64,000 nucleotides of DNA from Nonomuraea typhae. GTDB lineage: Bacteria > Actinomycetota > Actinomycetes > Streptosporangiales > Streptosporangiaceae. The notes below the pieces were generated by a model. That model did not search any database. It was not told where the DNA came from and saw only the letters and a program-made list of their open reading frames with translations. How positions within the stretch are numbered: the first letter of the stretch is position 1; the number at the start of each line of letters is the position of its first letter. The translations under genes and the position numbers were made by a program. Of this stretch, positions 23,595 to 59,008 are shown one piece after another. The stretch is taken from the NCBI RefSeq assembly GCF_009760925.1, contig NZ_VRLV01000020.1, forward strand, positions 1-64,000, in the 5' to 3' direction.

Positions 23595-23608
23595 TTTACA
23601 AAGTAGAT
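23595..23608 (+). repeat. dispersed 14-bp motif, copy 1
   Basis: TTTACAAAGTAGAT. It lies between the response-regulator and YigZ genes and overlaps the response-regulator stop codon by one base. Confidence 0.7.
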
Positions 23609-24237
23609 CAAATGCGAGGGATCAGCAGCCCCCGATGGAATGCCTCGGTCACCGCCGCGGCTCGGTCGTTCACCCCGAGCTTGGCGTAGATGCTCAGCAG
23701 GTGCGACTTGACGGTGGCCTCGGTGATGAACAGCCGCGCGGCCGCCTCCCGGTTGGTGTTGCCGGCCGCCACCAGCTCCAGCACCTCCATCTCGCGCCCG
23801 CTCAGCAGCTGCGGGGCCGGCGTCCTGACGCGGTTCATCAGCCGCGCCGCCACCGACGGCGACAGCACGCTCTCCCCGCGGGCCGCCGCCCGCGCGCCCC
23901 GCAGCAGCTCCTCACGCGGCGAGTCCTTCAGCAGATACCCGGTCGCGCCCGCCTCGATCGCCGGCAGCACGTGGCTGTCGGTGTCGTAGGTCGTCAGCAC
24001 CAGCACCCGCGCGCCGACACCCAGCCTGGCCAGCTCGGTGATCGCGCTCAGCCCGTCCATGCCCGGCATCCGCAGATCCATCAGGATCACATCCGGCGCC
24101 AGCCTCTGCGCCAGCCGTACCACCTCGGCGCCGTCGGCGGCCTCGCCCAGCACCTCGAAGCCGGGCGCGGAGGCGAACATGCTGCTCAGCCCGTCCCTGA
24201 CCACGGGATGGTCGTCGGCGATCAGCAGCCGGATCAT
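23608..24237 (-). CDS. NarL/LuxR response regulator
   Basis: The receiver domain has the acidic pair in LIADDHPVVRDGL, the phosphoacceptor Asp in DVILMDLRMPGMDGL, Thr in VLVLTTYD and Lys in YLLKDSPREEL. The C-terminal LuxR HTH reads LSGREMEVLELVAAGNTNREAAARLFITEATVKSHLLSIYAKLGVNDRAAAV. It overlaps the histidine-kinase gene by 4 bp (ATGA), so the two form one two-component system. The neighbouring ABC exporter is the likely target. Confidence 0.95.
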   Translation of the reverse strand: MIRLLIADDHPVVRDGLSSMFASAPGFEVLGEAADGAEVVRLAQRLAPDVILMDLRMPGMDGLSAITELARLGVGARVLVLTTYDTDSHVLPAIEAGATGYLLKDSPREELLRGARAAARGESVLSPSVAARLMNRVRTPAPQLLSGREMEVLELVAAGNTNREAAARLFITEATVKSHLLSIYAKLGVNDRAAAVTEAFHRGLLIPRI

Positions 24238-25472
24238 GCCCGGCCCCCGGCCGGCGCGGCGGGGATGCAGGCCGAGATCCCGGTGCCGGCGCCCGGCTCG
24301 GACTCGATCCGCAGCGTCCCCGACAGCCCCTCCACCCGCTGGCGCATGATCGCCAGCCCGAACCCGCCGCCGGGCGCCGCCACGTCGAAGCCGGCGCCGT
24401 CGTCACGCACGTCCAGGGCGACCTCCCGCTCCAGGTACGACAGCGTCACCCCGGCCCGGGAGGCATCGGCGTGCCTGGCCACGTTGGCCAGCGCCTCCTG
24501 GGCGGTGCGCAGCAGCGCGACCTCCGCCTCCGGCGCCATCGGCCGCACCGTCCCGGTCGTGGTGACCTGCACCGCCAGCCCGTGCAGCTTCGCCCACCGC
24601 TCGGCCACCCCGGCCAGCGCCTGGCTCAGCCCGGCCCCCTCCAGCGGCTCGGGCCGCAGCGCGTCCACCGAACGCCGCGCCTCCGACAGGCTCTCCCTGG
24701 CCAGCCTCGTGACCGCGTCGAAGGGCCGCCGCCACGGCCCCGGCACCTCGTGCATCTGCTCGGCCGCCTGCAACTGCGCGATGATCCCGGTGAAGCCCTG
24801 CGCCAGCGTGTCGTGGATCTCGCGCGCCATCCGCTGGCGCTCATCCAGCACCCCCGCCTCCCTGGCCTGGGCCAGCAGCTGGGCGTGCAGGCCCGCGTTC
24901 TCGGCCAGCGTCGCCTCCAGCAGCGCGTTGGCCGAGCTCAGCTCCGAAAGCGCCCGCAGCCGCCGCTCCTTCTCCTGCTCGGCCAGATGCAGGAACCACG
25001 CCGTCGCGCCCAGCATGACCACGTTGACCGCCACGATCACCGCCGCGATCACCAGCCCGGAGGCCGTCGTGACGCCCACGCCGGAGGCCTGCGCCGTGCC
25101 CGCCACCACCGCCACCGCGCCCACCCCCGCCAGCTGCCAGGGCCAGCGCAGCAGGGTGAAGGCGTAGATGTAGGGGGCGGGGGTGAACAGCCCGAACGCC
25201 GGCTCGCGCACCACCAGGACCGCGGTGACGGCCAGCAGCCCGGCGAAGAACACCCCCATGATCAGCGGCCGGTCGTGCCAGGCGGGCCGCAGCGTGAACA
25301 TCAGCAGCATCCACGCCGCCGCCAGCGCGCACAACCCCAGATCGACCAGCAGCACCGCACCCGGCGCGCTCCTGCCGAACACCAGGTAGCCGGCCAGCCC
25401 GGCCAGCAGCGTGTACGGCACGGCCGTCACCAGCAGGAACGGCAGCGGCTCTCCCGACCCCGTCGCGCTCAC
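24234..25472 (-). CDS. NarL-type sensor histidine kinase
   Basis: About five N-terminal membrane segments (residues about 10-170) precede a coiled coil and the HisKA_3 dimerisation box ERQRMAREIHDTLAQGFTGI, with the phospho-His. The ATPase domain has the N-box EALANVARHADASRAGVTL and G-boxes DDGAGFDVAAPGGGFGLAIM. Length is 412 residues from GTG 25472, which has GAAGGGGG upstream. It lies 27 bp after the ABC permease gene in the same direction, as in LiaRS/DesKR-like modules that sense membrane stress and control an exporter. Confidence 0.93.
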   Translation of the reverse strand: MSATGSGEPLPFLLVTAVPYTLLAGLAGYLVFGRSAPGAVLLVDLGLCALAAAWMLLMFTLRPAWHDRPLIMGVFFAGLLAVTAVLVVREPAFGLFTPAPYIYAFTLLRWPWQLAGVGAVAVVAGTAQASGVGVTTASGLVIAAVIVAVNVVMLGATAWFLHLAEQEKERRLRALSELSSANALLEATLAENAGLHAQLLAQAREAGVLDERQRMAREIHDTLAQGFTGIIAQLQAAEQMHEVPGPWRRPFDAVTRLARESLSEARRSVDALRPEPLEGAGLSQALAGVAERWAKLHGLAVQVTTTGTVRPMAPEAEVALLRTAQEALANVARHADASRAGVTLSYLEREVALDVRDDGAGFDVAAPGGGFGLAIMRQRVEGLSGTLRIESEPGAGTGISACIPAAPAGGRA

Positions 25473-25498
25473 GATGCCCCCTTCCGCCGGCTGCGAGT

Positions 25499-26251
25499 CT
25501 ATTGCCAGCGAAACCAGCGCACCGCGGCCAGCGCGCACCCGCCGGCGTAGGCGGCCAGGATCGCCAGCGGCGCCGCGGCCGGGAACGCGCCCAGGTAGGC
25601 GTCCTGGAAGGCCCGCATGCCCGCGCCGAGCGGGGTGTAGCGGCTGATGTCCTGCAGCAGCGGCGGCATGTTCGCGATCGGCACCCACAGCCCGGCGAAG
25701 AACATCAGCGGGAAGAACAGCATCGTGCCGATCGCCGAGGCCGGGCCGCGCCCGGGCGCCAGCGCGGTGACCAGCAGCCCGATCGACAGCAGCGCGGCGG
25801 CCGCCAGCAGCCAGGCCAGCGCGAACGCGGCCGGATTGCGAGGCAGCTCGACGCCGAAACCGACCCTGGCCACCACCAGGAACAGCACCATCGCCACCGC
25901 CGCGACGGCGAGGTTGGCCACCAGCTGGGCGGCCAGTACCCGGGCCGGTCCGACCGGCGTGCTCTGCATGCGCCGCAGCACGCCGTTCTCCCGGTAACCG
26001 GCCAGCGTCGCCGGCAGCGCCGTCAGGGCCACGATCGCCAGCGCGAACAACACCATGACCGGCACGTACACGTCGAAGGCCGTCAGGCCGCCCGCCCCCG
26101 GCAGGGGCTCCTTCAGCGCCGGCACGGCCCCCAGGATGACGAGCACCAGCAGCGGGCAGCCCACCCCCCAGATGGGCGCGACCTTGTCCCGGATCGACAG
26201 CGTGGTCTCGGTCCTGATCAGCCGCCAGGTCGCGGAATCCACAACAGACAT
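25499..26251 (-). CDS. ABC-2 type exporter permease
   Basis: 250 residues with six membrane segments. ABC-2 features include an N-terminal amphipathic stretch (WRLIRTETTLSIRDK), YRENGVLRRMQSTPVGPARVLAAQL in the coupling region and FFPLMFFAGLWVPIANMPPLLQDISRYTPLGAGM near the end. It follows the ATPase gene by 38 bp and probably forms a homodimer with it. Confidence 0.93.
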   Translation of the reverse strand: MSVVDSATWRLIRTETTLSIRDKVAPIWGVGCPLLVLVILGAVPALKEPLPGAGGLTAFDVYVPVMVLFALAIVALTALPATLAGYRENGVLRRMQSTPVGPARVLAAQLVANLAVAAVAMVLFLVVARVGFGVELPRNPAAFALAWLLAAAALLSIGLLVTALAPGRGPASAIGTMLFFPLMFFAGLWVPIANMPPLLQDISRYTPLGAGMRAFQDAYLGAFPAAAPLAILAAYAGGCALAAVRWFRWQ

Positions 26252-26289
26252 GACAAGCGTCTCCTTATCTCCTGCATCTACTGCGACAG

Positions 26290-27210
26290 CTACTGGGAGT
26301 CGGCCGGGAACCGCCGGCCGGTCAGCTCGACGAAGGCGTCCTCCAGGCTCGCCTGCTCCACCCGCAGCCGTTCGGCCACGATCTGATTGCGGGCCAGCAC
26401 TGCGGTGACGGCGCCGAGCGCGTCGGCGTTGCCGGTGACGACGACCAGCTCCCCCGCGCGGGTGACGCCGGAGACCTCGGGCAGGCCGCGCAGCAGCGCC
26501 TCATCCAGCGGCCGCGAGGGCCGGAACTGGATGCGCTGGCCGGCTTTCGCCCGCTGGGCCAGCCCGGCCGGGGTGTCCACCAGAAGGACCCGGCCGGCGT
26601 CGATCAGCGCCAGCCGGTCACACAGCCGCTCGGCCTCCTCCATGAAGTGGGTGACCAGCACGATCGTCACCCCGCGCGAGCGCACCTGCTCGATCAGCTC
26701 CCAGGTGTCGCGCCGCGCCTGCGGGTCCAGGCCGGTGGTCAGCTCGTCCAGGATGGCCACCCGCGGGCCGCCGACCAGCGCCAGCGCGATCGACAGCCGC
26801 TGCTTCTGCCCGCCCGACAGCTTGGCGAAGCGGGTCTTGGCCTTGCCGGCCAGGCCGAGCCCCTCCATCAGGGCCCGCCAGTCGGCCGGGCGGGGGTAGA
26901 AGGAGCTGTACAGCTCCAGCGCCTCGGCCACCTGCAGCCGATCGGGCAGCTGCCCGGCCTGCAGCTGCACGCCCAGGCGCCGGGTCAGCTCGGCGCGGTC
27001 GCGGCGCGGGTCGAGCCCGAGCACCGAGATCTCACCGCGATCCGGCGCCCGCAGCCCTTCGATGCATTCCACGGTCGTCGTCTTGCCGGCGCCGTTGGGG
27101 CCGAGGATCCCGAAGATCTCGCCCTCCTGGACGGTCAGCGACACGTCGTCGACCGCGATCTTGTCGTCGTAACGCTTGTGGAGGTTGCGCACCTCGATCA
27201 CTGCTGGCAT
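26290..27210 (-). CDS. ABC exporter ATPase
   Basis: DrrA-like ATPase of 306 residues. Walker A is GPNGAGKT, the signature KLSGGQKQRLS, Walker B VAILDEL, and the switch His lies in VLVTHFMEEAERL. A C-terminal domain of about 80 residues is typical of drug-resistance ATPases of this family. It heads the run ATPase-permease-kinase-regulator-YigZ. Confidence 0.95.
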   Translation of the reverse strand: MPAVIEVRNLHKRYDDKIAVDDVSLTVQEGEIFGILGPNGAGKTTTVECIEGLRAPDRGEISVLGLDPRRDRAELTRRLGVQLQAGQLPDRLQVAEALELYSSFYPRPADWRALMEGLGLAGKAKTRFAKLSGGQKQRLSIALALVGGPRVAILDELTTGLDPQARRDTWELIEQVRSRGVTIVLVTHFMEEAERLCDRLALIDAGRVLLVDTPAGLAQRAKAGQRIQFRPSRPLDEALLRGLPEVSGVTRAGELVVVTGNADALGAVTAVLARNQIVAERLRVEQASLEDAFVELTGRRFPADSQ

Positions 27211-27292
27211 GCCTCAACCCTGCTACGGCCGGCCCGCCCGCCACCATCGGCCGGCGGACGGGACCCGGCCGCCGGACGGTGGGCCCGCCCGA

Positions 27293-29026
27293 TCAGCCGA
27301 TCGGTGGAGTGCCGGCTCCCTCCAGGGCCGCCGCCGACAGCTTCCAGTAGGCGGCGTAGCGGCCGCCCAGGCGCAGCAGCTCCTCGTGGCTGCCCTGCTC
27401 GGCGATCCGGCCGCCGTCGAGGAAGACGATGTGATCGGCGCGCCGCACGGTCCGCAGCCGGTGAGCCACCATCACCACCGTGCGCCCGGCCAGCAGCCGC
27501 TCGATGCCCTCGTGCACGGCCGCCTCGCTGACCGGGTCCAGCGCGGAGGTCACCTCGTCCAGCAGCACGATGGGCGCGTCCTTCAGCAGCGCCCGCGCGA
27601 TCGACACCCGCTGGCGCTCGCCGCCCGACAGCAGCGCCCCGCCCTCGCCGACATGCGCCGACCAGCCGCCGGGCAGGCGCTCGACGACCTCGTCCAGCCG
27701 GGCCGCGCTCGCGGCCGCGCGCACCTCGGCCACGGTGGCGCCGGGACGGCCGAGCCGTACGTTGTCCTCGATCGTGCCGTCGAACAGGTAGACGTCCTGG
27801 AAGACGACGGCGATGCGGGCCATCAGCTCCTCGGTGGCGATCGCGCGCACGTCCGCGCCGCCCACGCGCACCGCTCCGGCGTCCACGTCGTAAAAGCGCG
27901 CCAGCAGCTGCAGCAGGGTGCTCTTGCCCGCGCCCGAGGGCCCGACCACGGCCAGCCGCCGCCCCTGCGCCACCTCCAGCGTCACCCCGTCGAGCACCGT
28001 GCGCCGGCCGTGGCCGAAGGTGACCGACTCGAAGGCCACGCCGTGGTGGCGCGGCCGGATCGGCGCGGCGGCCTCCGGCAGCGGCTCGGTGGCCAGCACC
28101 GCATCGAGCCTGGCCAGCTCCGAGCGCGCGCCGCGCAGCTTGCCGCCCAGGTCGGTCAGCGACAGCAGCGGGTCGGCGCAGCGCGCGGCCAGCACCAGGA
28201 TCGTCAGCAGCTCCGCCGCCCCGATGCTCGCGCCGAGCGCCAGGGCGGCGCCCAGGACGAGCACCGCGGTGAAGACCGCCTGCACGGTGAGCGTCAGCCC
28301 GACCGCGCCGGGCAGCACCGACAGCGTCAGCCGGCGCGAGACGCGCGCCACGCCCCGCAGCGCGTCGTCGAGCAGCCCGAAGCGTTCCGCGCCGCGGCCA
28401 CCGGCCCGCAGCACCGGCTGGGCCTGCAGGTATTCCACGACCCGCGCGCCGGCCTCGTGGTCGCGTTCGTGGCGCTCGGCGTCGTGCGCGGCCATCGAGC
28501 GGGCCGTCCACAGCTGGACCGCCGCCACCACCGGCGCGGCCGCCAGCGCGGCCAGCCCCAGCTGCCAGTGGTAGGCGAGCATCACCGCGGCGATCGTCAG
28601 CGGCGTCACCGAGGCGGAGATGAACGGCGCCAGCAGGTGCGCCACCACGCTCATCGCCGCCAGCAGGCCGCGGCCGGCCATCACCGACACCTCCCCGACG
28701 CGGCCGGCGGTGTACCAGCCGATGGGCAGGCGGGCCAGATGGTCGCCGAGCCGGTGATACATCCCGCGCAGCATCGCCGACCCGACGCGAAAGCCGTTGC
28801 GGTCGCTGAGGAAGCGCAGCACCCCGTACACCGCGAACCCGGCCCCGAAGGCCGCCAGCCACGGCAGCGCCGCGGCCGGCCGGCCGGCGAACAGCTCCCG
28901 CAGCACGGGCACCAGCAGCGCATACAGCAGGCCCTCGGCGACCGCGGCCGCCGTCATCAGCGCCAGGGTGCGGCGCATCGGCCGGGCGTAGTCGCGGCCC
29001 AGCACGCGCAGCAGCATGCCGATCAT
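27293..29026 (-). CDS. ABC transporter half, YbtQ/IrtB-like
   Basis: 577 residues: six membrane helices, then a nucleotide-binding domain with Walker A GPSGAGKST, signature LSGGERQRVSIARALLKDAP, Walker B IVLLDEVTSALDP and switch VAHRLRT. The phrase order matches the YbtQ/IrtB half-transporters, exporter-fold proteins that import metal-siderophore complexes. ATG 29026 shares one base with the stop of the partner gene (TGATG). Import of an iron chelate is an inference; a drug or peptide exporter is the alternative. Confidence 0.88.
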   Translation of the reverse strand: MIGMLLRVLGRDYARPMRRTLALMTAAAVAEGLLYALLVPVLRELFAGRPAAALPWLAAFGAGFAVYGVLRFLSDRNGFRVGSAMLRGMYHRLGDHLARLPIGWYTAGRVGEVSVMAGRGLLAAMSVVAHLLAPFISASVTPLTIAAVMLAYHWQLGLAALAAAPVVAAVQLWTARSMAAHDAERHERDHEAGARVVEYLQAQPVLRAGGRGAERFGLLDDALRGVARVSRRLTLSVLPGAVGLTLTVQAVFTAVLVLGAALALGASIGAAELLTILVLAARCADPLLSLTDLGGKLRGARSELARLDAVLATEPLPEAAAPIRPRHHGVAFESVTFGHGRRTVLDGVTLEVAQGRRLAVVGPSGAGKSTLLQLLARFYDVDAGAVRVGGADVRAIATEELMARIAVVFQDVYLFDGTIEDNVRLGRPGATVAEVRAAASAARLDEVVERLPGGWSAHVGEGGALLSGGERQRVSIARALLKDAPIVLLDEVTSALDPVSEAAVHEGIERLLAGRTVVMVAHRLRTVRRADHIVFLDGGRIAEQGSHEELLRLGGRYAAYWKLSAAALEGAGTPPIG

Positions 29027-30759
29027 CACAGCCCCTCTCGGCTCGCCGTCCGGTGGGCCCGCCAGAAGGAGGCGAAGGGCCCGTTGCGCGCCAGCAGCTC
29101 GGCGGGGCTGCCACGCTCGATGATCGTTCCGTTGTCCAGCATCACGACGGTGTCGGCGGCCGCGACCGTCTCCAGGCGATGGGCGATGACCAGGACGCTG
29201 CGGTCGCCGCCCAGCGCCGCCAGCGCCTGGCGCACCGCCAGCTCGCTTTCGGGGTCGGCGAAGGAGGTGGCCTCGTCCAGCACCAGCACGGGCGTGTCGG
29301 CCAGCAGCGCGCGGGCGATCGCGATCCGCTGCGCCTCGCCGCCCGACAGCCCGGCGTCCTCGCCGATCACGCTGTCGTAGCCGCGCGGCAGCTGAAGGAT
29401 GCGCTCGTGGACGTTGGCCAGCCGGGCCGCGCGCACCACCTGCTCGCGTCCGGCGTGCGGTACGGCCAGCGCGATGTTGTCGGCGACCGAGGCGCGCAGC
29501 AGCCGCACGTCCTGAAAGACGAACGACACCATCCGATGCAGCTCCCGGCCGCCCAGCTCGCGCAGATCGACGCCACCCAGCAGGATCGAGCCGCGGACGG
29601 GGTCGAAAAAGCGCGGCAGCAGGCGCACCAGCGTGGACTTGCCGCTGCCCGAGGCGCCGACGAGCGCGGTGACCGTACCGGGCTCCAGCACCAGGTCGAT
29701 GCCGCGCAGCACCTCCTGTCCGGGCTTGTAGCCGAAGTGCACGCCCCGCAGCTCCACCCGGTGCCCGCGCGGCGGGCGCGGGTGCGCGGGCTCGGGCAGG
29801 GGGCGCACGGCGAGCACCTCGCGGATGCGGCCCAGCGCCCGCCCGGCGGCCTGCGCCTCGTCGAAGCCGTGGCCCAGCGCCGCCACCGGAGCGGTCAGGC
29901 CCAGGCCCAGCAGCAGGAACGGCAGCAGGTCGGCCGGCGCCAGGCCGCCGCCGGCGATCAGGGCGGTGCCGCCGATCAGCACCACCAGCAGCACGAACGG
30001 CGGCGACAGCGCCAGCTGCATCCCGGCGGCGATGCCGGACACGCCGCGCACCCACCGGAAGAAGACGGTGACGAAGTCGTCGACCGCGGTGAGGAATCTG
30101 CGGTGGGCGCGCTCGGATCCGCCGAACACCTTCACCACCGCGATCCCCTGGACGAACTCCACGACGGAGTCGGCGATGCGTCCCATGGCCGCGTCGAAGT
30201 TCTCCTGCGCGCGGGTGCGCGAGGGGGTCATCAGCAGGGGGATCAGCGCCAGCGCCAGCGCCACCGGGATGAGCGTGATCAGGGTCAGCCGCCAGTCGAC
30301 GGCGAACAGGTAGATCAGCGAGGCCAGCGGCACCACGAAGGCGGAGACGAGCTCGCCGGGGGTGTGGGCGATGAAGGGGTGCAGGGCGCTGACGTCCTCG
30401 CCCGCCACCTTGGCCAGCTCGCCGGTGCGGCGGCGGGAGAACCAGCCGATCGGCGCCCGCCCCAGGCTCGCCGCCAGCCGCCGGCGCAGCGCCAGCTGCA
30501 CCCCGGTGTCGGTCAGGTGCCCGATCGCGGCCGAGGCGCCGCTCAGCAGCAGCCGCGCCAGCATCCCGGCCGCGCCCACGGCCACCACGCTCCACACGTG
30601 CGCGGCCTCGGCCGGGCCGGGCGACAGCAGCGTACGGCCCAGCTCGACGACCGCCAGCAGCGGCGCCAGGCCCGCCAGGGCGCCGGCCACCTGCAAGATC
30701 ACCACGGCGGCGAAACTCCAGAGATGGGGGCGCAGCAGCCCTCCCACGCTCGTGCTCAT
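29026..30759 (-). CDS. ABC transporter half, YbtP/IrtA-like
   Basis: 577 residues with the same layout as its partner. Walker A is GASGSGKST, the signature LSGGEAQRIAIARALLADTP, Walker B VLVLDEATSFADPESE and the switch IAHRLET. The DEAT-FADPESE version of the D-loop is characteristic of YbtP/IrtA-type siderophore transporters. No siderophore synthesis gene or ferric reductase domain is visible here, unlike mycobacterial IrtA, which carries a fused reductase. The pair surely acts as a heterodimer. Confidence 0.88.
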   Translation of the reverse strand: MSTSVGGLLRPHLWSFAAVVILQVAGALAGLAPLLAVVELGRTLLSPGPAEAAHVWSVVAVGAAGMLARLLLSGASAAIGHLTDTGVQLALRRRLAASLGRAPIGWFSRRRTGELAKVAGEDVSALHPFIAHTPGELVSAFVVPLASLIYLFAVDWRLTLITLIPVALALALIPLLMTPSRTRAQENFDAAMGRIADSVVEFVQGIAVVKVFGGSERAHRRFLTAVDDFVTVFFRWVRGVSGIAAGMQLALSPPFVLLVVLIGGTALIAGGGLAPADLLPFLLLGLGLTAPVAALGHGFDEAQAAGRALGRIREVLAVRPLPEPAHPRPPRGHRVELRGVHFGYKPGQEVLRGIDLVLEPGTVTALVGASGSGKSTLVRLLPRFFDPVRGSILLGGVDLRELGGRELHRMVSFVFQDVRLLRASVADNIALAVPHAGREQVVRAARLANVHERILQLPRGYDSVIGEDAGLSGGEAQRIAIARALLADTPVLVLDEATSFADPESELAVRQALAALGGDRSVLVIAHRLETVAAADTVVMLDNGTIIERGSPAELLARNGPFASFWRAHRTASREGL

Positions 30760-32080: not shown

Positions 32081-32102
32081 GACGTCAACCTCCAGAAACT
32101 AT

Positions 32103-35105: not shown

Positions 35106-35918
35106 GTGACCCTCATCGGGCGTGAACACCAGCACCACACCCTCCTGTCGCTCCTGCGCCACCGGCGCCTCGTCACCGTCACCGGGCCCGGCGGCATAGG
35201 CAAGACCGCCCTGGCCCGCGCCGTCGCCCTGGCCTGCGACCCCGACGCCCACCTGCTCGACCTGTCCGGCCCCGCGACCTGGCCGGAACGCACCCCGCCC
35301 CGCCTGCTCCTGCTCGACACCTGCGACCACGTCGTCGACCACTGCGCCGAACTCGCCCAGCGCCTGCTGGACCGCTTCCCCGCCCTGCGCATCCTGGTCA
35401 CCGGCCGCGAGGTGCTCGGCATCCCCGGCGAACACGTCACCACCGCCGCCCCGCTGGACGCCCGCCACGCCGCCGCCCTGTTCCACGAGCGCTCCGGCGG
35501 CCTGCACGCCGACCCCGGCGTCCTGGCCCGCCTCGACGGCATCCCCCTGGCCATCGAGATCGCCGCCGAGCACCTGCTGGACTCCGCCAAACTCGCCGAA
35601 CTCCTCGACAACGGCGCCTTCCACACCCTGGCCGCCGGCCCCGGGCACCCGGCCCGCCACGCCAGCATGCGCGCGGCCGCCGAATGGAGCCACCGCCTGT
35701 GCCGGCCGCCGGACGTCTACGCCTGGTCCCGGCTGGCCGCCTTCGAGACCCCCTTCGGCCTGGAGGAGGCCGAGCGCGCGCTGAACGGCTACCGCCCCGC
35801 CGCCGTCTCCGAGGCCGTCGCCCGCCTCGTGGAGCGCTCCATCCTCGTCGTCGACTCGGCCGCGGCCGACGCGAAGTGGTACCGGATGCCCTTCCACCTG
35901 CGCGCCTTTACGAAGTAG
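35106..35918 (+). CDS. truncated STAND ATPase
   Basis: 270 residues matching only the ATPase part of the neighbouring regulator: TLIGREHQHHTLLSLLRHRRLVTVTGPGGIGKT (Walker A), LLLLDTCDHVVDHC (Walker B), LVTGREVLGIPGEH, GIPLAIEIAAEHLL and the winged-helix part WSRLAAFETPFGLEEAERAL. In complete relatives ARLVERSILVV..YRMLETLR continues into TPR and HTH domains; here WYRMPFHLRAFTK is followed by TAG. That TAG belongs to a copy of the TTTACRNNGTAGAT motif. The product could be a decoy, a regulator of its neighbour or a decaying gene. Confidence 0.82.
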   Translation: MTLIGREHQHHTLLSLLRHRRLVTVTGPGGIGKTALARAVALACDPDAHLLDLSGPATWPERTPPRLLLLDTCDHVVDHCAELAQRLLDRFPALRILVTGREVLGIPGEHVTTAAPLDARHAAALFHERSGGLHADPGVLARLDGIPLAIEIAAEHLLDSAKLAELLDNGAFHTLAAGPGHPARHASMRAAAEWSHRLCRPPDVYAWSRLAAFETPFGLEEAERALNGYRPAAVSEAVARLVERSILVVDSAAADAKWYRMPFHLRAFTK

Positions 35919-35920
35919 AT
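35907..35920 (+). repeat. dispersed 14-bp motif, copy 2
   Basis: TTTACGAAGTAGAT. It encodes the last residues Phe-Thr-Lys and the TAG stop of the truncated STAND ATPase. Confidence 0.7.
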
Positions 35921-36413: not shown

Positions 36414-36427
36414 TTTACATTGTAGAT
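36414..36427 (+). repeat. dispersed 14-bp motif, copy 3
   Basis: TTTACATTGTAGAT. It lies in the divergent region between the NTF2-like gene and the kinase gene, 42 bp before the kinase start. Confidence 0.7.
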
Positions 36428-45080: not shown

Positions 45081-46264
45081 GCGACCACCCCCATGCGCCG
45101 CAGCTCGGCGATGCGCTCGGCGGGGATGTCCAGCTCGGCCAGCACCTCGTCGGTGTCGTGCCCGAGCGCCCGCCCCGCCCAGCGGATCTCGCCGGGCGTC
45201 TCCGACAGGCGGAACATCACGTTCTGCATGGTCACCGAGCCGAGCTCGTCGTCCTCGACGTCGACGAAGGTCTGAAGGGCGGTGTACTGCGGATCCACGG
45301 CGATGTCCTTTACATCGTAGATCGGCGCGATGGCCGCCTGGGCCTCCTCGAACGCGGCGATCACCTCCTCGGCGTCCCTGGCGGCGATCCACGAGGCCAC
45401 CGCCTGGTCCAGTTCCTCCACGTGCCGCACCCGCCCGGCCCCGCTGGCGAACCACGGCTCCTCCACCAGATCCGGCCGCCCCACGAGGGTCACCACCCGC
45501 TCGGCCACCGGCTGCGCGCTGGTCGAGACGGCCAGCCAGCGCCCGTCCCTGGTGCGGTAGGTGTTGCGCGGCGCGTTGCTGCTGGAGCGGTTGCCGGTGC
45601 GCGGCGGCACCACCCCGAGCGCCTTGTACGCGCTCATCTGCGGCCCGAGCAGCCCCAGGATCGGCTCGATGATCGCCAGGTCGATGATCTGGCCGCGCCC
45701 GGTCCGCTCCCGGTGGTGCAGAGCCACCATGATCGCGTACGACATGGCCAGCCCCGCGATGCCGTCCGCCAGCGCCAGCGGCGGCAGCGTGGGCGGCCCG
45801 TCCGGCTCGCCGGTCATCGCCGCGAACCCGCTCATCGCCTCGGCCAGCGTCCCGAACCCGGGCTGCCCGGCCATCGGCCCGAACTGCCCGAACCCGGTCA
45901 TCCGCGCCACGATCAGCCGCGGGTTGTCCCGCAGCAGCTCGGCCGGATCGAGCCCCCACCGCTCCAGCGTCCCCGGCCGGAAGTTCTCCACCAGCACATC
46001 CGCCCGCCCCGTCAGGCGGCGCACGATCTCCTGCCCCTCGGCGCGCGACATGTCGACGGCCACGTTGCGCTTGTTGCGCGAGAGCGTCTTCCACCACAGC
46101 CCCACGCCGTCGACGGCGGCGCCGTGGCCCCGTGACGGGTCGCCCCGCCGCGGATGCTCGATCTTGATGACGTCGGCGCCGAAGTCGCCCAGCATCATCG
46201 CGGCGGAGGGTCCGGCGAACAACGTCGCCATATCGATCACCCGAAGGTCGGCAAGACTTCCCAT
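45077..46264 (-). CDS. CaiB/BaiF family CoA-transferase
   Basis: 395 residues, family III CoA-transferase. Features are LADLRVIDMATLFAGPSAAMMLGDFGADVIKIEHPRRGD with the catalytic-type Asp later in ADVLVENFRPGTLERWGLDPAEL, GFGQFGPMAGQPGFGTLAEAMSGFA and GQIIDLAIIEP. It moves CoA between carboxylic acids. ATG 46264 (MGSLADL) is chosen; 46270 is possible. Motif copy 4 lies inside, encoding IYDVKD. No hydratase gene is present, so a full itaconate-type pathway is not complete here. Confidence 0.92.
   Translation of the reverse strand: MGSLADLRVIDMATLFAGPSAAMMLGDFGADVIKIEHPRRGDPSRGHGAAVDGVGLWWKTLSRNKRNVAVDMSRAEGQEIVRRLTGRADVLVENFRPGTLERWGLDPAELLRDNPRLIVARMTGFGQFGPMAGQPGFGTLAEAMSGFAAMTGEPDGPPTLPPLALADGIAGLAMSYAIMVALHHRERTGRGQIIDLAIIEPILGLLGPQMSAYKALGVVPPRTGNRSSSNAPRNTYRTRDGRWLAVSTSAQPVAERVVTLVGRPDLVEEPWFASGAGRVRHVEELDQAVASWIAARDAEEVIAAFEEAQAAIAPIYDVKDIAVDPQYTALQTFVDVEDDELGSVTMQNVMFRLSETPGEIRWAGRALGHDTDEVLAELDIPAERIAELRRMGVVA
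45309..45322 (+). repeat. dispersed 14-bp motif, copy 4
   Basis: TTTACATCGTAGAT. It lies inside the CoA-transferase gene (read on the minus strand as part of IYDVKD) and forces the rare Val codon GTA. Confidence 0.7.
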
Positions 46265-51662: not shown

Positions 51663-53318
51663 TCAGAGCGCCGCCCGGATCGCCGTCTGGGCGGCCTCCC
51701 GCAGCTGGGCGTGGACGAGGGCGTTGGCCTCCCGCTCCGTCCGCACCTCCACGACCCGCGGACCCTCCCCGCGCAACGCCTTGGCCAGCTCAGAAAGATC
51801 GCCGACCAGCGTATAAGGCGTCCCGGTAGCCGCGCAGACATACCCGAGGTCAATCCCGTGAGGCGTGCCGAAGACCCGCTCGAACGGATCCCGCAGGGCC
51901 GCCTGCGGCAACAGCGAGAAAATCCCCCCGCCGTCGTTGTTGACCACGACGTAGCACAGATCCGGCCGAGGCTCACGAGGCCCGAGGATGAGCCCGTTCT
52001 GGTCATGCAGGAACGACAGGTCGCCCAGCAGCGCGAACGACGGCCCGTTGTGCCCGAGCGCGGCCCCCATGGCCGTGGAGACCAGCCCGTCGATGCCCGA
52101 GGCCCCCCGGCTGGCCAGCACCCGGATCCCCCGCCGCGGCCGCATGGCCTGGTCGAGGTCCCGGATCGGCATGGACGAGCCGGTGAACAGCAGCGCCCCG
52201 TTGGGCAGCGCGTCCACCAGGTCGCGCGCCAGCCGCGGCTCACTCATGCCGGAGGAGTCGAGCAGGTCGTCGATGGCGGCGCGCGCCGCGGCCTCGGCGC
52301 CGCGCCAGGCGTGCAGCCACGTGTCGTCCCCGGAGGCGACGGGAATCTCGACCGCCTGGGCGACCTGGGTGGCCGAGCGCGTCGGGTCCGGCCAGCGGGC
52401 CAGGTCGGGCGCGACGACGATGTGCTCCTCGGCGCGCTTCAGCCACGACAGCAGCGGCCGCGACAGCCCCGGGCGGCCGAGGGTCACGACCACGTCGGGC
52501 TGGTGGGCGTCGGCGAACTCGGGCGTGCCGAGCAGGAAGTGGTAGGTGGAGATGGCGTGGTCGCCGTAGCGCCCGCTGCCGCTGGGCTCCGACAGCACCG
52601 GCCAGCCGGCCATGCCGGCGGCGGCGATGTACCGGCGCACGTTGGCGGCGCCGTCCCCCACCACCAGGACGCCGCGCCGGGTCGGCGGGATGTGCAGGGC
52701 GACCGGCGGCGGCGCGACCCGGGCCCGCACCCACGGCCCGTTGGCGTCGCCGTCGAGCGACTCGCACCACGTGGTGTCGCCGTCGGGGATCAGCGGCTCG
52801 CGGAAGGCCAGGTTGAGGTGGACGGGACCCGGGTCGGAGGGACCGAGGGCCCGCTGGTAGGCGCGGCAGGCCAGCGACCGCCAGTACGCCACCTGGCCGG
52901 GGCGGTCCTCCGGCACGCCGACCTCGGCGAACCAGCGGACGGCCGAGCCGAACAGCTTGATCTGGTCGATGGTCTGGTTGGCGCCGGTGCCGCGCAGCTC
53001 GGGCGGGCGGTCGGCCGTCAGCACGAGCAGCGGCACACCCGACTCGCCGGCCTCGATGACGGCCGGGTGGAAGTTGGCGGCGGCCGTACCGGAGGAGCAC
53101 AGCAGCGCGACCGGCCGCTCGGAGCGCTTGGCCAGGCCCAGCGCGAGGAACGAGGCCGAGCGCTCGTCGATGCGCACGTGCAGGCGGACCCGGGACTCGG
53201 CGTGCAGGGCCAGCGCGAGCGGGGCCGAGCGGGAGCCGGGCGCCAGCACGACGTCGGTGAGCCCGCAGCGCACCAGCTCGTCGACCAGCACGGTAGCCAG
53301 CGCGGTGGCGGGGTTCAC
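51663..53318 (-). CDS. menD: MenD (SEPHCHC synthase)
   Basis: 551-residue thiamine-diphosphate enzyme that joins isochorismate and 2-oxoglutarate in menaquinone synthesis. APGSRSAPLA, IDERSASFLALGLAK (Glu that activates ThDP), CSSGTAAANFHPAVIEA and DRPPELRGTGANQTIDQ are MenD signatures; GDLSFLHDQNGL..VVNNDGGGIFSLLPQ is the ThDP/Mg site. GTG 53318 has GGAGG upstream and overlaps the menC stop (GTGA), so translation is coupled. Confidence 0.96.
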   Translation of the reverse strand: MNPATALATVLVDELVRCGLTDVVLAPGSRSAPLALALHAESRVRLHVRIDERSASFLALGLAKRSERPVALLCSSGTAAANFHPAVIEAGESGVPLLVLTADRPPELRGTGANQTIDQIKLFGSAVRWFAEVGVPEDRPGQVAYWRSLACRAYQRALGPSDPGPVHLNLAFREPLIPDGDTTWCESLDGDANGPWVRARVAPPPVALHIPPTRRGVLVVGDGAANVRRYIAAAGMAGWPVLSEPSGSGRYGDHAISTYHFLLGTPEFADAHQPDVVVTLGRPGLSRPLLSWLKRAEEHIVVAPDLARWPDPTRSATQVAQAVEIPVASGDDTWLHAWRGAEAAARAAIDDLLDSSGMSEPRLARDLVDALPNGALLFTGSSMPIRDLDQAMRPRRGIRVLASRGASGIDGLVSTAMGAALGHNGPSFALLGDLSFLHDQNGLILGPREPRPDLCYVVVNNDGGGIFSLLPQAALRDPFERVFGTPHGIDLGYVCAATGTPYTLVGDLSELAKALRGEGPRVVEVRTEREANALVHAQLREAAQTAIRAAL

Positions 53319-54241
53319 GAAGCAGCCTCCTGCATCCGGCGAAGCCACAAGGGGGATTCGATCTCAAATTCCGACAAAAGCCCAGCATCGACAACCGGGC
53401 GGCGAACCTCGATCTCCCCGCCGACCGGCACGAGCGAGTCTTTCACGACATCTCCCGACAACAGGGTCATGGTCCCCAGACCGCACGCGTACGGGAGCTC
53501 GGGCAGCGCGGCCGCCAGGGCCAGCCCGGCGGCCAGGCCGATCGAGGTCTCGACCGCGCTGGAGACCACCGCGGGCAGCCCGCACGCCTCCACCACGCGC
53601 AGCGCGTTGCGCACCCCGCCCAGCGGCTGCACCTTCACCACCGCGACGTCGGCCGCCTCGGCCGCACGCACCCGCAGCGGATCCTCGGCCCGGCGGATCG
53701 ACTCGTCGGCGGCGATCGGCACCCCGGCACGCCGGCGCACCCGGGCCAGGTCCTCCAGCGTGGCGCAGGGCTGCTCGGCGTACTCCAGGCCGAAGCGCGA
53801 CAGCGCCTTCAGCCGCCGCACCGCCTCGTCCACGCTCCAGGCGCCGTTGGCGTCCACGCGGATCCTGCCGGAGGGGCCCAAGGCATCGCGTACCGCCTCC
53901 ACCCTGGCCATGTCCTCGGCGAAGTCCTGGCCGCGCTCGGCCACCTTCACCTTCGCCGTGCCGCAGCCCGCCCGCCGTACCAGCTCGAAAGCCCGCTCCG
54001 GTGGCACGGCGGGCACGGTCGCGTTGACCGGCACCGACGCGCGCACGGGCGCGGGCCAGCCCTCGAAGGCGGCCTCCCGGGCGCAGGCCAGCCACCGGGC
54101 GCACTCGCGCGGGCCGTACTCGGGGAACGGCGAGAACTCACCCCAGCCGGCGGGCCCGTGGATCAGCATGCCCTCCCGGGCGCTCTGACCCCGGAAGCGG
54201 TCACGCATGGGGATCCGGAAGACGACGGGAGAACGCTCCAC
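53315..54241 (-). CDS. menC: MenC (o-succinylbenzoate synthase)
   Basis: 308 residues of the enolase superfamily. GTAKVKVAERG contains the KxK base pair, RVDANGAWSVDEA an Asp metal ligand, EYAEQPC a Glu ligand, VPIAADESI an Asp/Glu, and VVKVQPLGG the opposite base Lys. It dehydrates SHCHC to o-succinylbenzoate. The start is uncertain: GTG 54241 gives VERSPVVFRIPMRDRFRG, close to the family N-terminus; GTG 54277 would add 12 residues. Confidence 0.93.
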   Translation of the reverse strand: MERSPVVFRIPMRDRFRGQSAREGMLIHGPAGWGEFSPFPEYGPRECARWLACAREAAFEGWPAPVRASVPVNATVPAVPPERAFELVRRAGCGTAKVKVAERGQDFAEDMARVEAVRDALGPSGRIRVDANGAWSVDEAVRRLKALSRFGLEYAEQPCATLEDLARVRRRAGVPIAADESIRRAEDPLRVRAAEAADVAVVKVQPLGGVRNALRVVEACGLPAVVSSAVETSIGLAAGLALAAALPELPYACGLGTMTLLSGDVVKDSLVPVGGEIEVRRPVVDAGLLSEFEIESPLWLRRMQEAAS

Positions 54242-54290
54242 GACCCTCCCCGCACTGAATATCCGATCTGTCGCCACTAACCTTACGAGC

Positions 54291-55415
54291 ATGGTGAGCA
54301 AAGCGTTGCACGCCCTTGCGCTGCCGCCCGGTCCGCGGTTGTTCGCGGCGATCCGTGAGGCACTGTCCGGCGAAGGGCCCGCGGTGCTCCCGCTTCCCCC
54401 GGGCGACGCCGCCGCGACGCTCGCGGCCCTGCGTCCCACCCACCTCGACGGGGTACGGCGGGCCGGCGGCGAAGGCGTGCCCGGCGACGTCGCGGTGGTG
54501 ATCGCGACCAGCGGCAGCACCGGCGTGCCGAAGGGCGTGATGCTCGGCGCCGAGGCGTTGCGGGCCTCGGCACGGGCGTCGCTGCGCAGGCTGGAGGCGG
54601 TCAAGGGCGAGCGGTGGCTGTGCTGCCTGCCGCCGTCGCACGTGTCGGGGCTGCAGGTGCTGGTCCGGGCGATGCTCAGCGACAGCGAGCCGGTCATCCA
54701 CGACGGGTTCGACCCCGGGGCGGTGCTGTCGTCGGGCGCCGAGCACGTCTCGCTGGTGCCGACTCAGCTGCACCGGCTCGCCGAGCGCAGGGCGAACCTG
54801 TCGGTCTTCCGCACCATCCTGCTGGGCGGCGCGGCGCCCCGCCCCGGCCTGCTGGAGGAGGCCCGGGCACTCGGCGCCCGGATCGTCACGACGTACGGGA
54901 TGAGCGAGACCAGCGGCGGCTGCGTGTACGACGGCCGGCCCCTTTACGATGTAGATCTCAAAATCGGCGGCGACGGCCGCATCCGGATCGCCGGGCCCGT
55001 CCTGTTCTCCGGCTACCGCTTCGGCGCCGCGCCGTTCGAGGACGGCTGGTTCGTCACCTCCGACCTCGGCGAACTGCACGCCGGGCGGCTGCGCGTGCTC
55101 GGCCGGGCCGACGACGTCATCAACACCGGCGGCGAGAAGGTCGTGGCCGGGGTCGTGGCCGCCGTGCTCGGCTCGCACCCGGAGGTCGCCGACGTGGCCG
55201 TCATCGGCTCCCCCGACCCCGAATGGGGCGAGCGCGTCGTGGCCGTCGTGGTGCCCGCCGACGCCGGCCGCCCGCCCACGCTGGCCCAGTTGCGCGCCTA
55301 CGCCAAAGACCGGCTGCCGCCCCACGCCGCCCCCCGCGAACTGCGGCTTCTCACCAGCCTTCCGCTCCTTCCGAATGGAAAGACCGATCTCGCCATGTTG
55401 CGGACCGGAACCTGA
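54291..55415 (+). CDS. menE: MenE (o-succinylbenzoate-CoA ligase)
   Basis: 374 residues, AMP-forming ligase. The P-loop is VVIATSGSTGVPKGV, followed by CCLPPSHVSGLQVLVRA, TTYGMSETSGGCVYDGRP, FVTSDLGEL, LGRADDVINTGGEKVV (hinge) and the catalytic Lys in LPNGKTDL. The short N-terminus is usual for actinobacterial MenE. It is divergent from menC-menD. Motif copy 5 falls inside and encodes LYDVD with rare codons. Confidence 0.94.
   Translation: MVSKALHALALPPGPRLFAAIREALSGEGPAVLPLPPGDAAATLAALRPTHLDGVRRAGGEGVPGDVAVVIATSGSTGVPKGVMLGAEALRASARASLRRLEAVKGERWLCCLPPSHVSGLQVLVRAMLSDSEPVIHDGFDPGAVLSSGAEHVSLVPTQLHRLAERRANLSVFRTILLGGAAPRPGLLEEARALGARIVTTYGMSETSGGCVYDGRPLYDVDLKIGGDGRIRIAGPVLFSGYRFGAAPFEDGWFVTSDLGELHAGRLRVLGRADDVINTGGEKVVAGVVAAVLGSHPEVADVAVIGSPDPEWGERVVAVVVPADAGRPPTLAQLRAYAKDRLPPHAAPRELRLLTSLPLLPNGKTDLAMLRTGT
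54943..54956 (+). repeat. dispersed 14-bp motif, copy 5
   Basis: TTTACGATGTAGAT inside menE, read as part of Leu-Tyr-Asp-Val-Asp. The local codons CTT, GAT, GTA, GAT and the nearby AAA are rare in the neighbouring genes. Confidence 0.7.
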
Positions 55416-55462
55416 CAGGGCCCGGCTGCGTCATAGGTGGCGAGAGACAGTAGGGAGCCTTC

Positions 55463-55783
55463 ATGAACCAGACCCGCAAGATGTGGGCGTCCGCGGCGGC
55501 CGTCGGCGTCATCCTCGTCGGAGGCGCAACCGTCGCGGCAGCCGCTTCGGCGGGCCGGGTCGAACAGGCCCGCGCGGAGACCCAGGCGAAGATCCGGGAG
55601 TCCGCGCCCAAACCCACGCCCACCCCCACCTCCACGGACGGGTTCGTGGTCTCCGAGGAGATCAACCCCGACCCGGGCAAGGTCCTGGACTACTGGACCG
55701 AGCAGCGCATGGAGAGCGCGGAACCCATGCCGATGCCCGAGGTCGAGGTCGGACCGGCGGATTCATTCGAACTGGCGGAGTAA
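55463..55783 (+). CDS. secreted or anchored small protein
   Basis: 106 residues. A basic start and hydrophobic stretch (MWASAAAVGVILVGGATVAAAASA) form a signal peptide or membrane anchor, followed by a helical stretch, a PTPTPTS linker and an acidic tail rich in Met, Pro and Glu. No domain is recognised. GGGAG lies just before ATG 55463. Confidence 0.65.
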   Translation: MNQTRKMWASAAAVGVILVGGATVAAAASAGRVEQARAETQAKIRESAPKPTPTPTSTDGFVVSEEINPDPGKVLDYWTEQRMESAEPMPMPEVEVGPADSFELAE

Positions 55784-55797
55784 TTCCGCAGGGTGTG

Positions 55798-55832
55798 GGG
55801 TGGATCGCATTGTCCGCGGTTCACCCTTTTTT
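55798..55832 (+). terminator. T-tract terminator
   Basis: GGGTG (55798-55802) and CACCC (55822-55826) bracket a loop and are followed by six T. This is one of few U-tract terminators in the window and lies after the small secreted-protein gene. Confidence 0.55.
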
Positions 55833-55952
55833 GCTCGTCCGGGAACAAACGGCGGCGAATGACGTTATTGATACTGGTGCGCTGAGCGGTCACACACCCG
55901 CCCCACCACAATCTGCCTGATCGCTTCGACTCCGTATGGAGGAGGTGTCCTC

Positions 55953-57287
55953 ATGCCCAGAACCGCCGTGGCGGCCCCGCCCGCGACCCTCGACCAGCTC
56001 CTTGACCGAGGGCGAGCTCAGGGTCACCTTTCTCTCGCGGAGCTGCGCGACGCGTTCGCGCACGCCGGCATCAGCCCTGCCGAGGGCCGATCCATCCTGC
56101 GCGAGCTGACCGAGGCCGGCGTCAGCCTGGCCGCGGAGAACGAGCCTGCCCTGACCGCCAAGGCGAGGAAGGCTCCCGCCGCGAAGAAGACCACAGCTCC
56201 GAAGAAGAGCACCGCCACCAAGAAGACTACAAAGGCTGTCAAGGAGACCGCCGGACCGCCGGCCGCCGAGCCCGGAACCGACGACGAGCCCGACGAGCTG
56301 ACCCTGGCCGCCTCGGCCGAGGAGAGCGACGAGGACGTCGACCTGGAGCAGGAGCCGCTCGACCTCGACGACAACCAGTCCGTCATGGGCGACTCGGTGC
56401 ACACCTACCTCAAGTCGATCGGCCGCCGCACGCTGCTGACCGCCGCCGAGGAGGTCGAGCTCGCCCGCCGTATCGAGGCCGGGCTGTACGCCGAGTACAA
56501 GCTCGACGACGACAACTGTCCCGTGGCGATGCGCGACGACCTGGAAATGGTCGCCGAGGACGGCCGCCGCGCCAAGGACCACATGCTCGAGGCCAACCTG
56601 CGCCTGGTCGTCTCCGTCGCCAAGAAGTACACCGACCGCGGCATGTCGCTGCTGGACGTCGTCCAGGAGGGCAACCTCGGCCTGATCCGCGCCGTGGAGA
56701 AGTTCGACTACACCAAGGGCTTCAAGTTCTCCACCTACGCCATGTGGTGGATCCGGCAGGCCATTCAGCGCGGCTTCGCCGACTCGGCCCGCACGATCCG
56801 CCTGCCCGTCCACGTGCTGGAGATGCTGTCGAAGCTCTCCCGCATCGAGCGCGACATGCACCAGCGCCTGGGCCGCGAACCCACGCCGGAAGAGCTCGCG
56901 GTGGAGCTGGACAAGACTCCCGACCAGATCGAGGAGCTCCTGCGCACCAGCCGCCAGCCCATCTCGCTCAACGCCACCATCGGCGAGGACGGCGAGACCA
57001 CCATCGGCGACCTCATCGAGGACGTCGACTCCCCCGAGGCATCCGAGATCGTCGACCGCCAGCTCCTGGGCGACCAGCTCCGCGGCGTCCTGGAGAACCT
57101 GTCGCCGCGCGAGTCCAAGATCATGGCCCTGCGCTTCGGCCTGGTGGACGGCAAGCCGCACACCCTTGACGAGATCGGCAAGCACCTCGGCCTCACCCGG
57201 GAGCGGATCCGGCAGCTGGAGAAGGAATCCCTGTCCAAGCTCCGCCACCCCAGCAACACCCGGCCCCTGCTCGACTGGGCCAGCTGA
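55953..57287 (+). CDS. primary-type sigma-70 factor
   Basis: 444 residues. A region 1.1-like module ([45 protein letters not shown]) precedes a Lys/Ala-rich tract (about residues 65-105) and an acidic tract. Region 1.2-2 has [102 protein letters not shown]; region 4 has [47 protein letters not shown]. It is shorter than usual HrdB, and [13 protein letters not shown] differs from the usual TRAMADQARTIRI, so it could be the main sigma or a close second. GGAGGAGGT precedes ATG 55953. Confidence 0.93.
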
Positions 57288-57293
57288 GAACCG

Positions 57294-57330
57294 CGCCCGG
57301 CGCCCACCAGGACGCCGGGCGATCCCCTTT
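57294..57330 (+). terminator. terminator after the sigma gene
   Basis: CGCCCGGCG (57294-57302) and CGCCGGGCG (57313-57321) form a 9-bp stem 7 bp after the stop, followed by a short pyrimidine run ending in TTT. Confidence 0.7.
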
Positions 57331-57422
57331 CCAGGGTTCACAGGGGTACTGGACAGCAGCAAAACGGGCGGACGCACTACTGTGAGGTGACCAAGCGGGC
57401 ACCCCCTGGAGGAGAGCACCGA

Positions 57423-58493
57423 ATGAGGCCACGCGCCCGAGCCCTGCCCATCTCCCTAGACGGCGCCACGGGCGCCCACAACGCCATCACCGACGTCCCC
57501 GGCGTGGAGGTCGGCTACGTGACCCTGACCGAGGGCACCGCCCGCACCGGTGTCACGGCGATCCTCCCGCGTGGCCGCGACGGGGTCGGCACCCCGTGCG
57601 CGGCGGGCGTCCACTCGCTCAACGGCAACGGCGAGATGACCGGCGTGACCTGGATCGAGGAGAGCGGCGCCCTGACCCTCCCGGTCACCATCACCAACAC
57701 CCACGCCGTCGGTACCGTGCACCGGGGCGTGATCGATTGGGTGGCGGACAAGCATCCGGCGCTGGCCGAGGAGTGGCTGCTGCCCGTGGTGGCCGAGACG
57801 TGGGACGGCTACCTCAACGACATCAACGCCCCCCACGTCCGCCCCGAGCACGCCGGCCAGGCGATCGACGCGGCCGCCGGCGGCACCCCCGCGGAGGGCA
57901 GCGTGGGCGGCGGCACCGGCATGAACTGCTACGGCTTCAAGGGCGGCTCGGGCACGTCCTCACGCGTGGTGGAGTACGTGGACCGCTCCTACACGGTGGG
58001 CGCGTTCGTGCAGGCGAACTTCGGCAGCCGGGCCGAGCTGACCGTGGCCGGCAACCGGGTGGGCCCGGCGCTCATGGACGACAACCCGATGGCCGCGCGC
58101 ACGCGGGAGGGCGCCGGTTCGGTGATCGTGGTGGTGGCCACCGACGCGCCCCTGCTGCCCGGCCAGTGCAAGGCGCTGGCGCGCCGGGTGCCGCTCGGCC
58201 TGGCCAGGACGGGCACCACGGGCAGCCACTTCTCCGGCGACATCTTCCTGGCCTTCTCCACGGCCAACGAGGGCGCGCTGACCAGCGGATTCGCCGCCGG
58301 AGAGGACTATGAGGCGCTGCGTTTCGTGCCGTGGGGCCGCATGGACCGCTTCTACGACGCGGTGGTGCAGGCGGTGGAGGAGGCGGTGCTCAACGCGCTG
58401 ACGGCCGCCGAGGACACCGTCGGCCGCGACGGCCACCGCTCCCCCGGCCTGCCCCTGGAGCGCCTCACGGACCTGCTGACGCGCGCGAGCTGA
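57423..58493 (+). CDS. P1 family (DmpA/BapA-like) peptidase
   Basis: 356 residues of the P1 N-terminal-nucleophile family. Characteristic segments are NAITDVPGVEVGYVTL, ARTGVTAILPRG, NGNGEMTGVTWIEESGAL, ITNTHAVGTVHRGVIDW, and GSVGGGTGMNCYGFKGGSGTSSRVVE, which includes the region where the precursor cuts itself before the active Ser. Members are D-aminopeptidases or beta-peptidyl aminopeptidases. GGAGGAG lies 8 nt before ATG 57423. Confidence 0.92.
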   Translation: MRPRARALPISLDGATGAHNAITDVPGVEVGYVTLTEGTARTGVTAILPRGRDGVGTPCAAGVHSLNGNGEMTGVTWIEESGALTLPVTITNTHAVGTVHRGVIDWVADKHPALAEEWLLPVVAETWDGYLNDINAPHVRPEHAGQAIDAAAGGTPAEGSVGGGTGMNCYGFKGGSGTSSRVVEYVDRSYTVGAFVQANFGSRAELTVAGNRVGPALMDDNPMAARTREGAGSVIVVVATDAPLLPGQCKALARRVPLGLARTGTTGSHFSGDIFLAFSTANEGALTSGFAAGEDYEALRFVPWGRMDRFYDAVVQAVEEAVLNALTAAEDTVGRDGHRSPGLPLERLTDLLTRAS

Positions 58494-58509
58494 ACCACCC
58501 CGGCAGCGC

Positions 58510-58908
58510 TCAGTACGAGGACGGGACCGGCCGGGGCAGCCGCGGGATGCCCCACAGCCGGTTCTCCTCGCGCAGCGTGCGCAGCCGCTCGACCTCGGCC
58601 GACCACTCGGCCCCCGCGGGCGTGGCCTTGGCCTTACGGCGGGCGATGCGGTCGTCGTAAGCCTTGACGCCGAACGTGGCCCGCTGCCCGGCCTCGGCCC
58701 CGCGCAGCGCCTCGGTGAGCGCCTTGTCGAACGCCTGCCCGGCCGCCATCAGCTCGAGGTCGTCGGCCTGGGCGGCGCGCAGGTCGCGCACCGTCCGCTC
58801 CGCCTCGCGAGCCTTGCCCAGGAGCTCGGGGAAGGTCTTGGAGATCTCGATGTCCGCGTGGTAGCGCACCTCGGCCTCACGGCTCACCCGGGGACGGAAA
58901 AACGCCAT
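58510..58908 (-). CDS. conserved hypothetical coiled-coil protein
   Basis: 132 residues, highly charged and mostly helical (LLGKAREAERTVRDLRAAQADDLELMAAGQAFDKALTEALRG, AEVERLRTLREENRLWGIPRLPRP). No enzyme motif. It is divergent from the TetR gene, with motif copy 6 between them. Confidence 0.7.
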   Translation of the reverse strand: MAFFRPRVSREAEVRYHADIEISKTFPELLGKAREAERTVRDLRAAQADDLELMAAGQAFDKALTEALRGAEAGQRATFGVKAYDDRIARRKAKATPAGAEWSAEVERLRTLREENRLWGIPRLPRPVPSSY

Positions 58909-58994
58909 CGACTCTTCCCTTTCTCACTGCTGCGTTCCAGGCGTAGCGTACGCCGTCGCGGGACACGGCCAGTAATCGGACCCGCCCGCTCGCC

Positions 58995-59008
58995 TTTACA
59001 GTGTAGAT
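58995..59008 (+). repeat. dispersed 14-bp motif, copy 6
   Basis: TTTACAGTGTAGAT, 8 bp before the TetR ATG (59017). Position and dyad shape (TTTACA/TGTAGA) suggest this copy is the TetR operator. Confidence 0.7.

Follow-up and report, generated by a model that had tools for sequence, protein, structure and literature searches.

A polar motif around the predicted dif site of Streptosporangiaceae chromosomes is a candidate Ter-like site of a third replication fork trap

The first 64,000 nucleotides of a contig of Nonomuraea typhae (NZ_VRLV01000020.1; C13:1-64000 in a genome that comprises 11.39 Mb and 54 contigs; hereafter referred to as the window) have a G+C content of 72.5%, and they contain six copies of the 14-bp motif TTTACRNNGTAGAT, all on the + strand and none on the − strand. 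The question raised by this locus is what such a sequence marks, and why it points in one direction only. Our recount agrees with what had been noticed from the letters of the window alone (the sequence-only reading), the copies being located at 23595..23608, 35907..35920, 36414..36427, 45309..45322, 54943..54956 and 58995..59008. The first and second copies overlap stop codons, the third and sixth are intergenic, the fourth lies within a CaiB-like gene encoded on the − strand, and the fifth lies within a menE-like gene; this distribution of two copies per class had also been described before, and it was the same with the independent, simple gene caller that we used to place the copies. The sixth copy is located 8 bp ahead of a TetR gene (start at 59017), a gap that was correctly reported, and we judged this neighbor to be unrelated. 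The expectation of well under one copy by chance was equally sound, as dinucleotide shuffles of the window contained a mean of 0 copies and 0 of 100 shuffles reached six. Relatives of the motif with one mismatch were absent from the window, and just two with two mismatches were found, both on the − strand. As detailed below, the motif has a defined sequence, is enriched in and restricted to one bacterial family, has a fixed polarity, clusters around dif and is to some extent conserved in position. We consider it likely that the motif serves as a Ter-like site in a third, convergent replication fork trap, at which a protein would bind and replication forks would be arrested.

Whether the motif is enriched across the genome had been named in the sequence-only reading as a point on which its proposal could fail. 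With the reversed pattern as a control, this enrichment is present: the window's own genome contains 14 copies of the motif versus 1 of the control, and 36 sampled Nonomuraea genomes contain 502 copies (3 to 21 each) versus 5. In an order-wide sample, at least one copy was found in 195 of 196 Streptosporangiaceae genomes, representing 42 of 43 genera, while the motif was carried by 0 of 4 genomes from two sister families and was absent from all 19 genomes sampled from other orders. A phylum-wide sample outside the Streptosporangiaceae showed one or two copies, and never more, in 36 of 295 genomes, which is chance level since the reversed control was found in 35 of these 295. A longer pattern matched 118 stretches in named genomes, and among the 80 stretches listed, 68 belonged to Nonomuraea, Actinomadura, Streptosporangium and their kin (Herbidospora, Microbispora, Actinoallomurus and Marinactinospora being other genera among the 68 matches listed), and 12 to scattered others. 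We take the genera of these 68 stretches to be Streptosporangiaceae in the sense of GTDB. A possible link to phages was also considered, but none of the 69 IMG/VR stretches with the longer motif exceeded 62% G+C and we judged these matches to be due to chance.

The orientation of the motif was analyzed with reference to a predicted chromosome dimer resolution site, dif, whose sequence we derived from non-coding DNA common to three terminus regions that were compared. In the window this dif is located at 3202..3229 on the + strand (2 mismatches, 0 matches expected), and all six copies of the motif sit to the right of it, the copy at 23595..23608 being the nearest. A single match per genome was found in 12 of the 12 Nonomuraea genomes searched; the dif pattern was also found in 26 of 38 Streptosporangiaceae genomes of other genera and in 1 of 3 genomes outside the family. 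The predicted site is very similar to a dif that was proposed for Frankia alni in PMC3025954, a paper noting that none of the actinobacterial dif sites had been experimentally confirmed by then. Of 54 Nonomuraea genomes, 53 gave a match for the dnaA gene (PF08299), and in the 11 of them that have dnaA and dif on one contig the two lie opposite each other with arms of near-equal length (4.44 and 4.64 Mb in G033).

In G033, which is assembled as a single contig, all copies of the motif below 4.61 Mb are on the − strand and all copies above 4.86 Mb are on the + strand. This arrangement is general. The motif reads away from dif in 155 of 155 sites in the 11 Nonomuraea genomes, and in 182 of 182 sites if three genomes of other genera are added (14 near-complete genomes). 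Furthermore, dif is located between the innermost opposed sites in 14 of the 14 genomes in which the dif-bearing contig holds both groups, and on the dif-bearing contigs of seven further genera 18 of 18 sites read away from dif. In four genomes from other genera, G125, G133, G547 and G560, where dif is unplaced, the motif orientation flips once on the main contig, and the pattern in a fifth, G097, is compatible with a single flip. A plot of the strand relative to origin and terminus had been proposed before, with mixed orientation as a refuting outcome; mixed orientation was not seen, the sites being uniform about dif. The alternative of a chromosome-organising signal, which the sequence-only reading had placed beside an operator function, is strongly supported: of the three outcomes named as refuting it, none was seen in what was examined, namely the enrichment over the reversed control, the arm-set orientation and the copy in the CaiB-like gene. 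The distance of the 155 sites from dif has a median of 8.5% of the arm and none of them lies past 48%, which places all sites in the terminus-proximal half. Of the two innermost sites, one is located 5.5 to 51 kb from dif and the opposite one 56 to 626 kb. We conclude that this is a genuine motif, which occurs generally in the Streptosporangiaceae and is specific to the terminus.

A strict polarity about dif would also suit a signal for segregation, through which a DNA translocase or a condensin (FtsK-like, or through off-loading of SMC) guides DNA to dif and forks are not stopped. This is the main rival explanation, and we regard it as unlikely. The FtsK-orienting polar sequences (KOPS) are frequent along whole chromosome arms, whereas there are just 3 to 21 copies of the motif per Nonomuraea genome and the origin-proximal half was empty of sites in the 11 genomes. 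Moreover, the motif is a long site whose one-mismatch relatives show no polarity: among 20 such relatives in G033 and G005, 11 fit the polarity and 9 do not, and their median position is at 56% of the arm. Recognition of the motif therefore looks strict. KOPS are described as 8 bp in length and as likewise oriented from origin to terminus (PMC2680272).

The copy number, polarity and placement of the motif match those of Ter sites, which makes a fork trap the best reading of the data. In Nonomuraea, usually about 10 to 20 polar elements flank dif on both sides in the part of the chromosome that faces the origin, and all of them read away from dif. In the mechanism that we propose, a putative terminator protein would bind to them. 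Forks coming from the origin side would meet the GTAGAT end first and would be let in. Forks that have passed the dif zone and try to leave it would meet the C-rich TTTAC end first and would be stopped, for which reason the TTTAC end should be the blocking face. With entry allowed and exit stopped, replication would end between the two innermost opposed sites.

The sequence of the element itself was refined with 176 distinct sites that were gathered regardless of their flanks (87 from Nonomuraea and 89 from other genera). A C was found at position −1 in 171 of the 176 sites and at position −2 in 164, and position +14 was C or T in all 176, while the two free central bases were mostly A or T. 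The full element is CTTTACRNNGTAGATY, which may be written as C-TTTAC-R-NN-GTAGAT-Y with a C-rich 5′ flank. The 14-mer of the sequence-only reading is thus a real sequence that was drawn slightly too short, since positions −1 and +14 are also constrained. TTTAC and GTAGA form a near-palindrome, and the combination of this core with an asymmetric flank suggests that a dimer may bind the core and that the flank may set the polarity. In shape the element recalls matS (GTGACRNYGTCAC), which has a three-base centre between AC and GT, and its clustering at the terminus would also fit a macrodomain site of this kind, bound by a condensing protein like MatP. However, matS is a palindrome that needs no particular orientation, whereas 182 of 182 sites of the motif are oriented, and we consider this explanation quite improbable.

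The sequence-only reading had favored operators of a TetR or BlaI-type regulon, for which the copy 8 bp ahead of the TetR gene and the near-symmetric TTTAC/GTAGA core speak. We could not uphold this. Among 78 sites placed with the simple gene caller, 44 were intergenic, 24 overlapped stop codons and 10 were located in genes, and most sites lie outside promoters. Compared with the genes whose ends or bodies they overlap, 17 sites were on the same strand and 17 on the opposite strand, which indicates that the orientation of the motif is set by the chromosome arm and not by transcription; the neighboring genes are varied. In addition, two other genera have genes that cluster with the window's TetR gene, and for these the distance to the closest site is 3.2 and 3.6 kb instead of 8 bp. 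The site context, the polarity and these distant TetR relatives refute operators as the main function of the motif, and we give this explanation practically no chance. It had also been asked whether copies within genes are conserved, and the copy in the CaiB-like gene is indeed kept: it occupies the same codons in an orthologue on contig G031:C2 of a second Nonomuraea species, whose protein is 83% identical. A final A or T is found in only 14 of the 388 codons of the window's CaiB-like gene. Three positions with such an ending are common to both orthologues: the GTA codon of the site, a nearby codon and the stop codon.

The surroundings of dif also contain recurring genes. A tyrosine recombinase is encoded at 11380..12468 on the + strand of the window, 8 kb from dif, with a near full-length catalytic domain (Phage_integrase, PF00589) and with scores far below the cut-offs for XerC, XerD, XerA and XerS. 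In 19 of the 23 Streptosporangiaceae regions compared, a member of its family is encoded no more than 10 kb from dif, and it may act with dif as a dedicated dif recombinase of the Streptosporangiaceae. Genome G084, in which no exact copy of the motif was found, still has dif and the dif-linked recombinase; if the trap was lost or its site has drifted there, this genome would serve as a natural control. Beside dif, at 3537-3776, the window encodes a small protein of about 80 amino acids without a match in Pfam or NCBIfam; in 11 of the 24 regions that were compared, a member of its family lies near dif. Also near dif, at 6074-7639, the window encodes a MurA-like enzyme that has a helix-turn-helix domain at its N-terminus, and the corresponding enzymes encoded near dif in G033, G070 and G026 share 96-97% identity with it.

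A fork trap requires a binding protein, and we searched for one among known families and among the neighbors of the sites. Tus (PF05472) was found in 0 of 61 Streptosporangiaceae genomes at an E-value of 0.1, with a positive E. coli control. RTP (PF02334) was likewise found in 0 of these 61 genomes over the cut-off, with weak matches in 59 of them; 17 of the weakly matching loci were read as PadR-type regulators, and 10 of the 10 that were scanned passed the PadR cut-off. RTP and PadR proteins are both winged-helix proteins, which makes a PadR-type binder a conceivable but unsupported lead. The DNA-binding genes seen as 5′ neighbors of sites were TetR types (in the window and at L138), an XRE type (L132) and a short TetR-like gene (L055). 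When the genes around sites were clustered, with only part of the sites covered for G089 and for the Nonomuraea group, DNA-binding types, including MarR, MerR, ArsR and GntR, occurred in at most 4 of 13 groups. The recurrence of such families is accounted for by local synteny of the terminus, and none of them is a convincing binder. The dif-linked tyrosine recombinase is a poor candidate because it is also present in G084. The binder gene may be unlinked, or only loosely linked, to the sites.

Several points weigh against a fork trap. Protein binding, fork arrest and the assignment of the blocking face are all inferred. In both known traps, the promoter of the gene for the trap protein contains a ter site (PMC10331603); here, the DNA-binding genes among the 5′ neighbors of 105 distinct sites occurred singly, none of them recurring, and no gene recognised as a binder recurred beside the sites or dif in the regions compared. 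The trap would be wide, as the innermost site on the far side is located up to 626 kb from dif. Three of the 195 motif-bearing Streptosporangiaceae genomes have a single copy, and G084 has none. It should also be noted that the polarity counts cover contigs with dif, leaving aside draft contigs without it, the plasmid-like contig G031:C3 (one site on the + strand and three on the − strand) and contig G023:C1 (one − and one +). Finally, some of the gene-corrected G-C skew values deviate from expectation. Negative values were expected for the right arm of G068, of which sampled pieces have a skew of +0.01, and for the 11 kb that follow the innermost site of G070 on its right, where the skew is 0.00. 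A positive value was expected for the 41 kb on the left side of the innermost left site of G033, where the skew is slightly negative. Elsewhere, the skew of the window is +0.11 from dif to the first site and −0.17 to the right of the first site, and in G070, G033 and G026 it is about 0 over the 216 to 286 kb that separate dif from the innermost site on the far side. The cumulative skew of the window, in 10-kb steps, peaks near 20 kb, between dif at 3.2 kb and the first copy at 23.6 kb, and thus away from dif. The skew evidence as a whole is mixed, and we did not count it as support.

Copies of the motif were also observed on DNA that may be extrachromosomal. The plasmid-like contig G031:C3 has four sites, one of them within a large gene of unknown type, and also has a ParA-type gene. 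This large gene (L282, 6318-8606) and a large gene on the small contig G000:C18 (L013, 129-1928) each hold a copy of the motif, which when read in frame encodes Leu-Tyr-x-Val-Asp. The two proteins are weakly similar to each other (blastp E-value of 2e-4), and neither has a Pfam match over the cut-off. Plasmids may carry sites of the motif too. In its wider form, our proposal is that the Streptosporangiaceae have retained, throughout the family, a third fork trap that evolved convergently to Tus-Ter and RTP-ter, uses a new terminator protein and perhaps reaches plasmids, and we hold this to be probably correct. In our searches of open-licence papers, we found no report of the motif or of an actinobacterial fork trap. 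The two fork traps based on tus and rtp, which are unrelated to each other, are described as restricted to four clades (PMC6549158), and perhaps most bacteria are without a fork trap (PMC10331603). If true, a third trap, present in Actinobacteria whose genomes reach about 14 Mb, would mean that traps evolved repeatedly, and it would allow the purpose of fork traps to be tested in a lineage that is not related to E. coli. The motif is exact enough for a direct pull-out of its putative binding protein, and it provides a terminus marker for the Streptosporangiaceae that needs sequence only.

Among the known terminus systems, MatP-matS shares with the motif its restriction to the terminus and the three-base centre between AC and GT, but differs in that the Streptosporangiaceae motif is strictly oriented. 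KOPS and the architecture imparting sequences are, like the motif, polar about dif, but the motif is far rarer, is longer, and in the 11 genomes with dnaA and dif on one contig does not occur beyond 48% of the arm. The motif is by eye unrelated to Ter, no Tus match was obtained in the 61 genomes, and no gene for a trap protein was recognised beside its sites, which sets it apart from Tus-Ter. The architecture is nevertheless similar. In both systems opposed polar groups surround dif opposite the origin, with one innermost site close to dif and the other farther from it. In E. coli, the two groups are made up of about ten polar ter sites that are spread across some 43% of the chromosome; terC is described as the site close to dif, and terA follows at a further distance of about 267 kb (PMC13220808). 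The ter sites bound by Tus in E. coli and by RTP in B. subtilis are non-palindromic and polar around dif (PMC6549158, PMC13220808), and the insertion of TerB in the wrong orientation is reported as not possible in E. coli (PMC8707476). The RTP-ter system differs in that the trap of B. subtilis is narrow (PMC13220808) whereas that of the Streptosporangiaceae would be wide, and in that RTP itself gave no match over the cut-off. Like RTP-ter, however, the motif forms two opposed polar groups around dif, and its near-palindromic core with an asymmetric flank could mean that it is bound by a dimer and takes part in a second contact.

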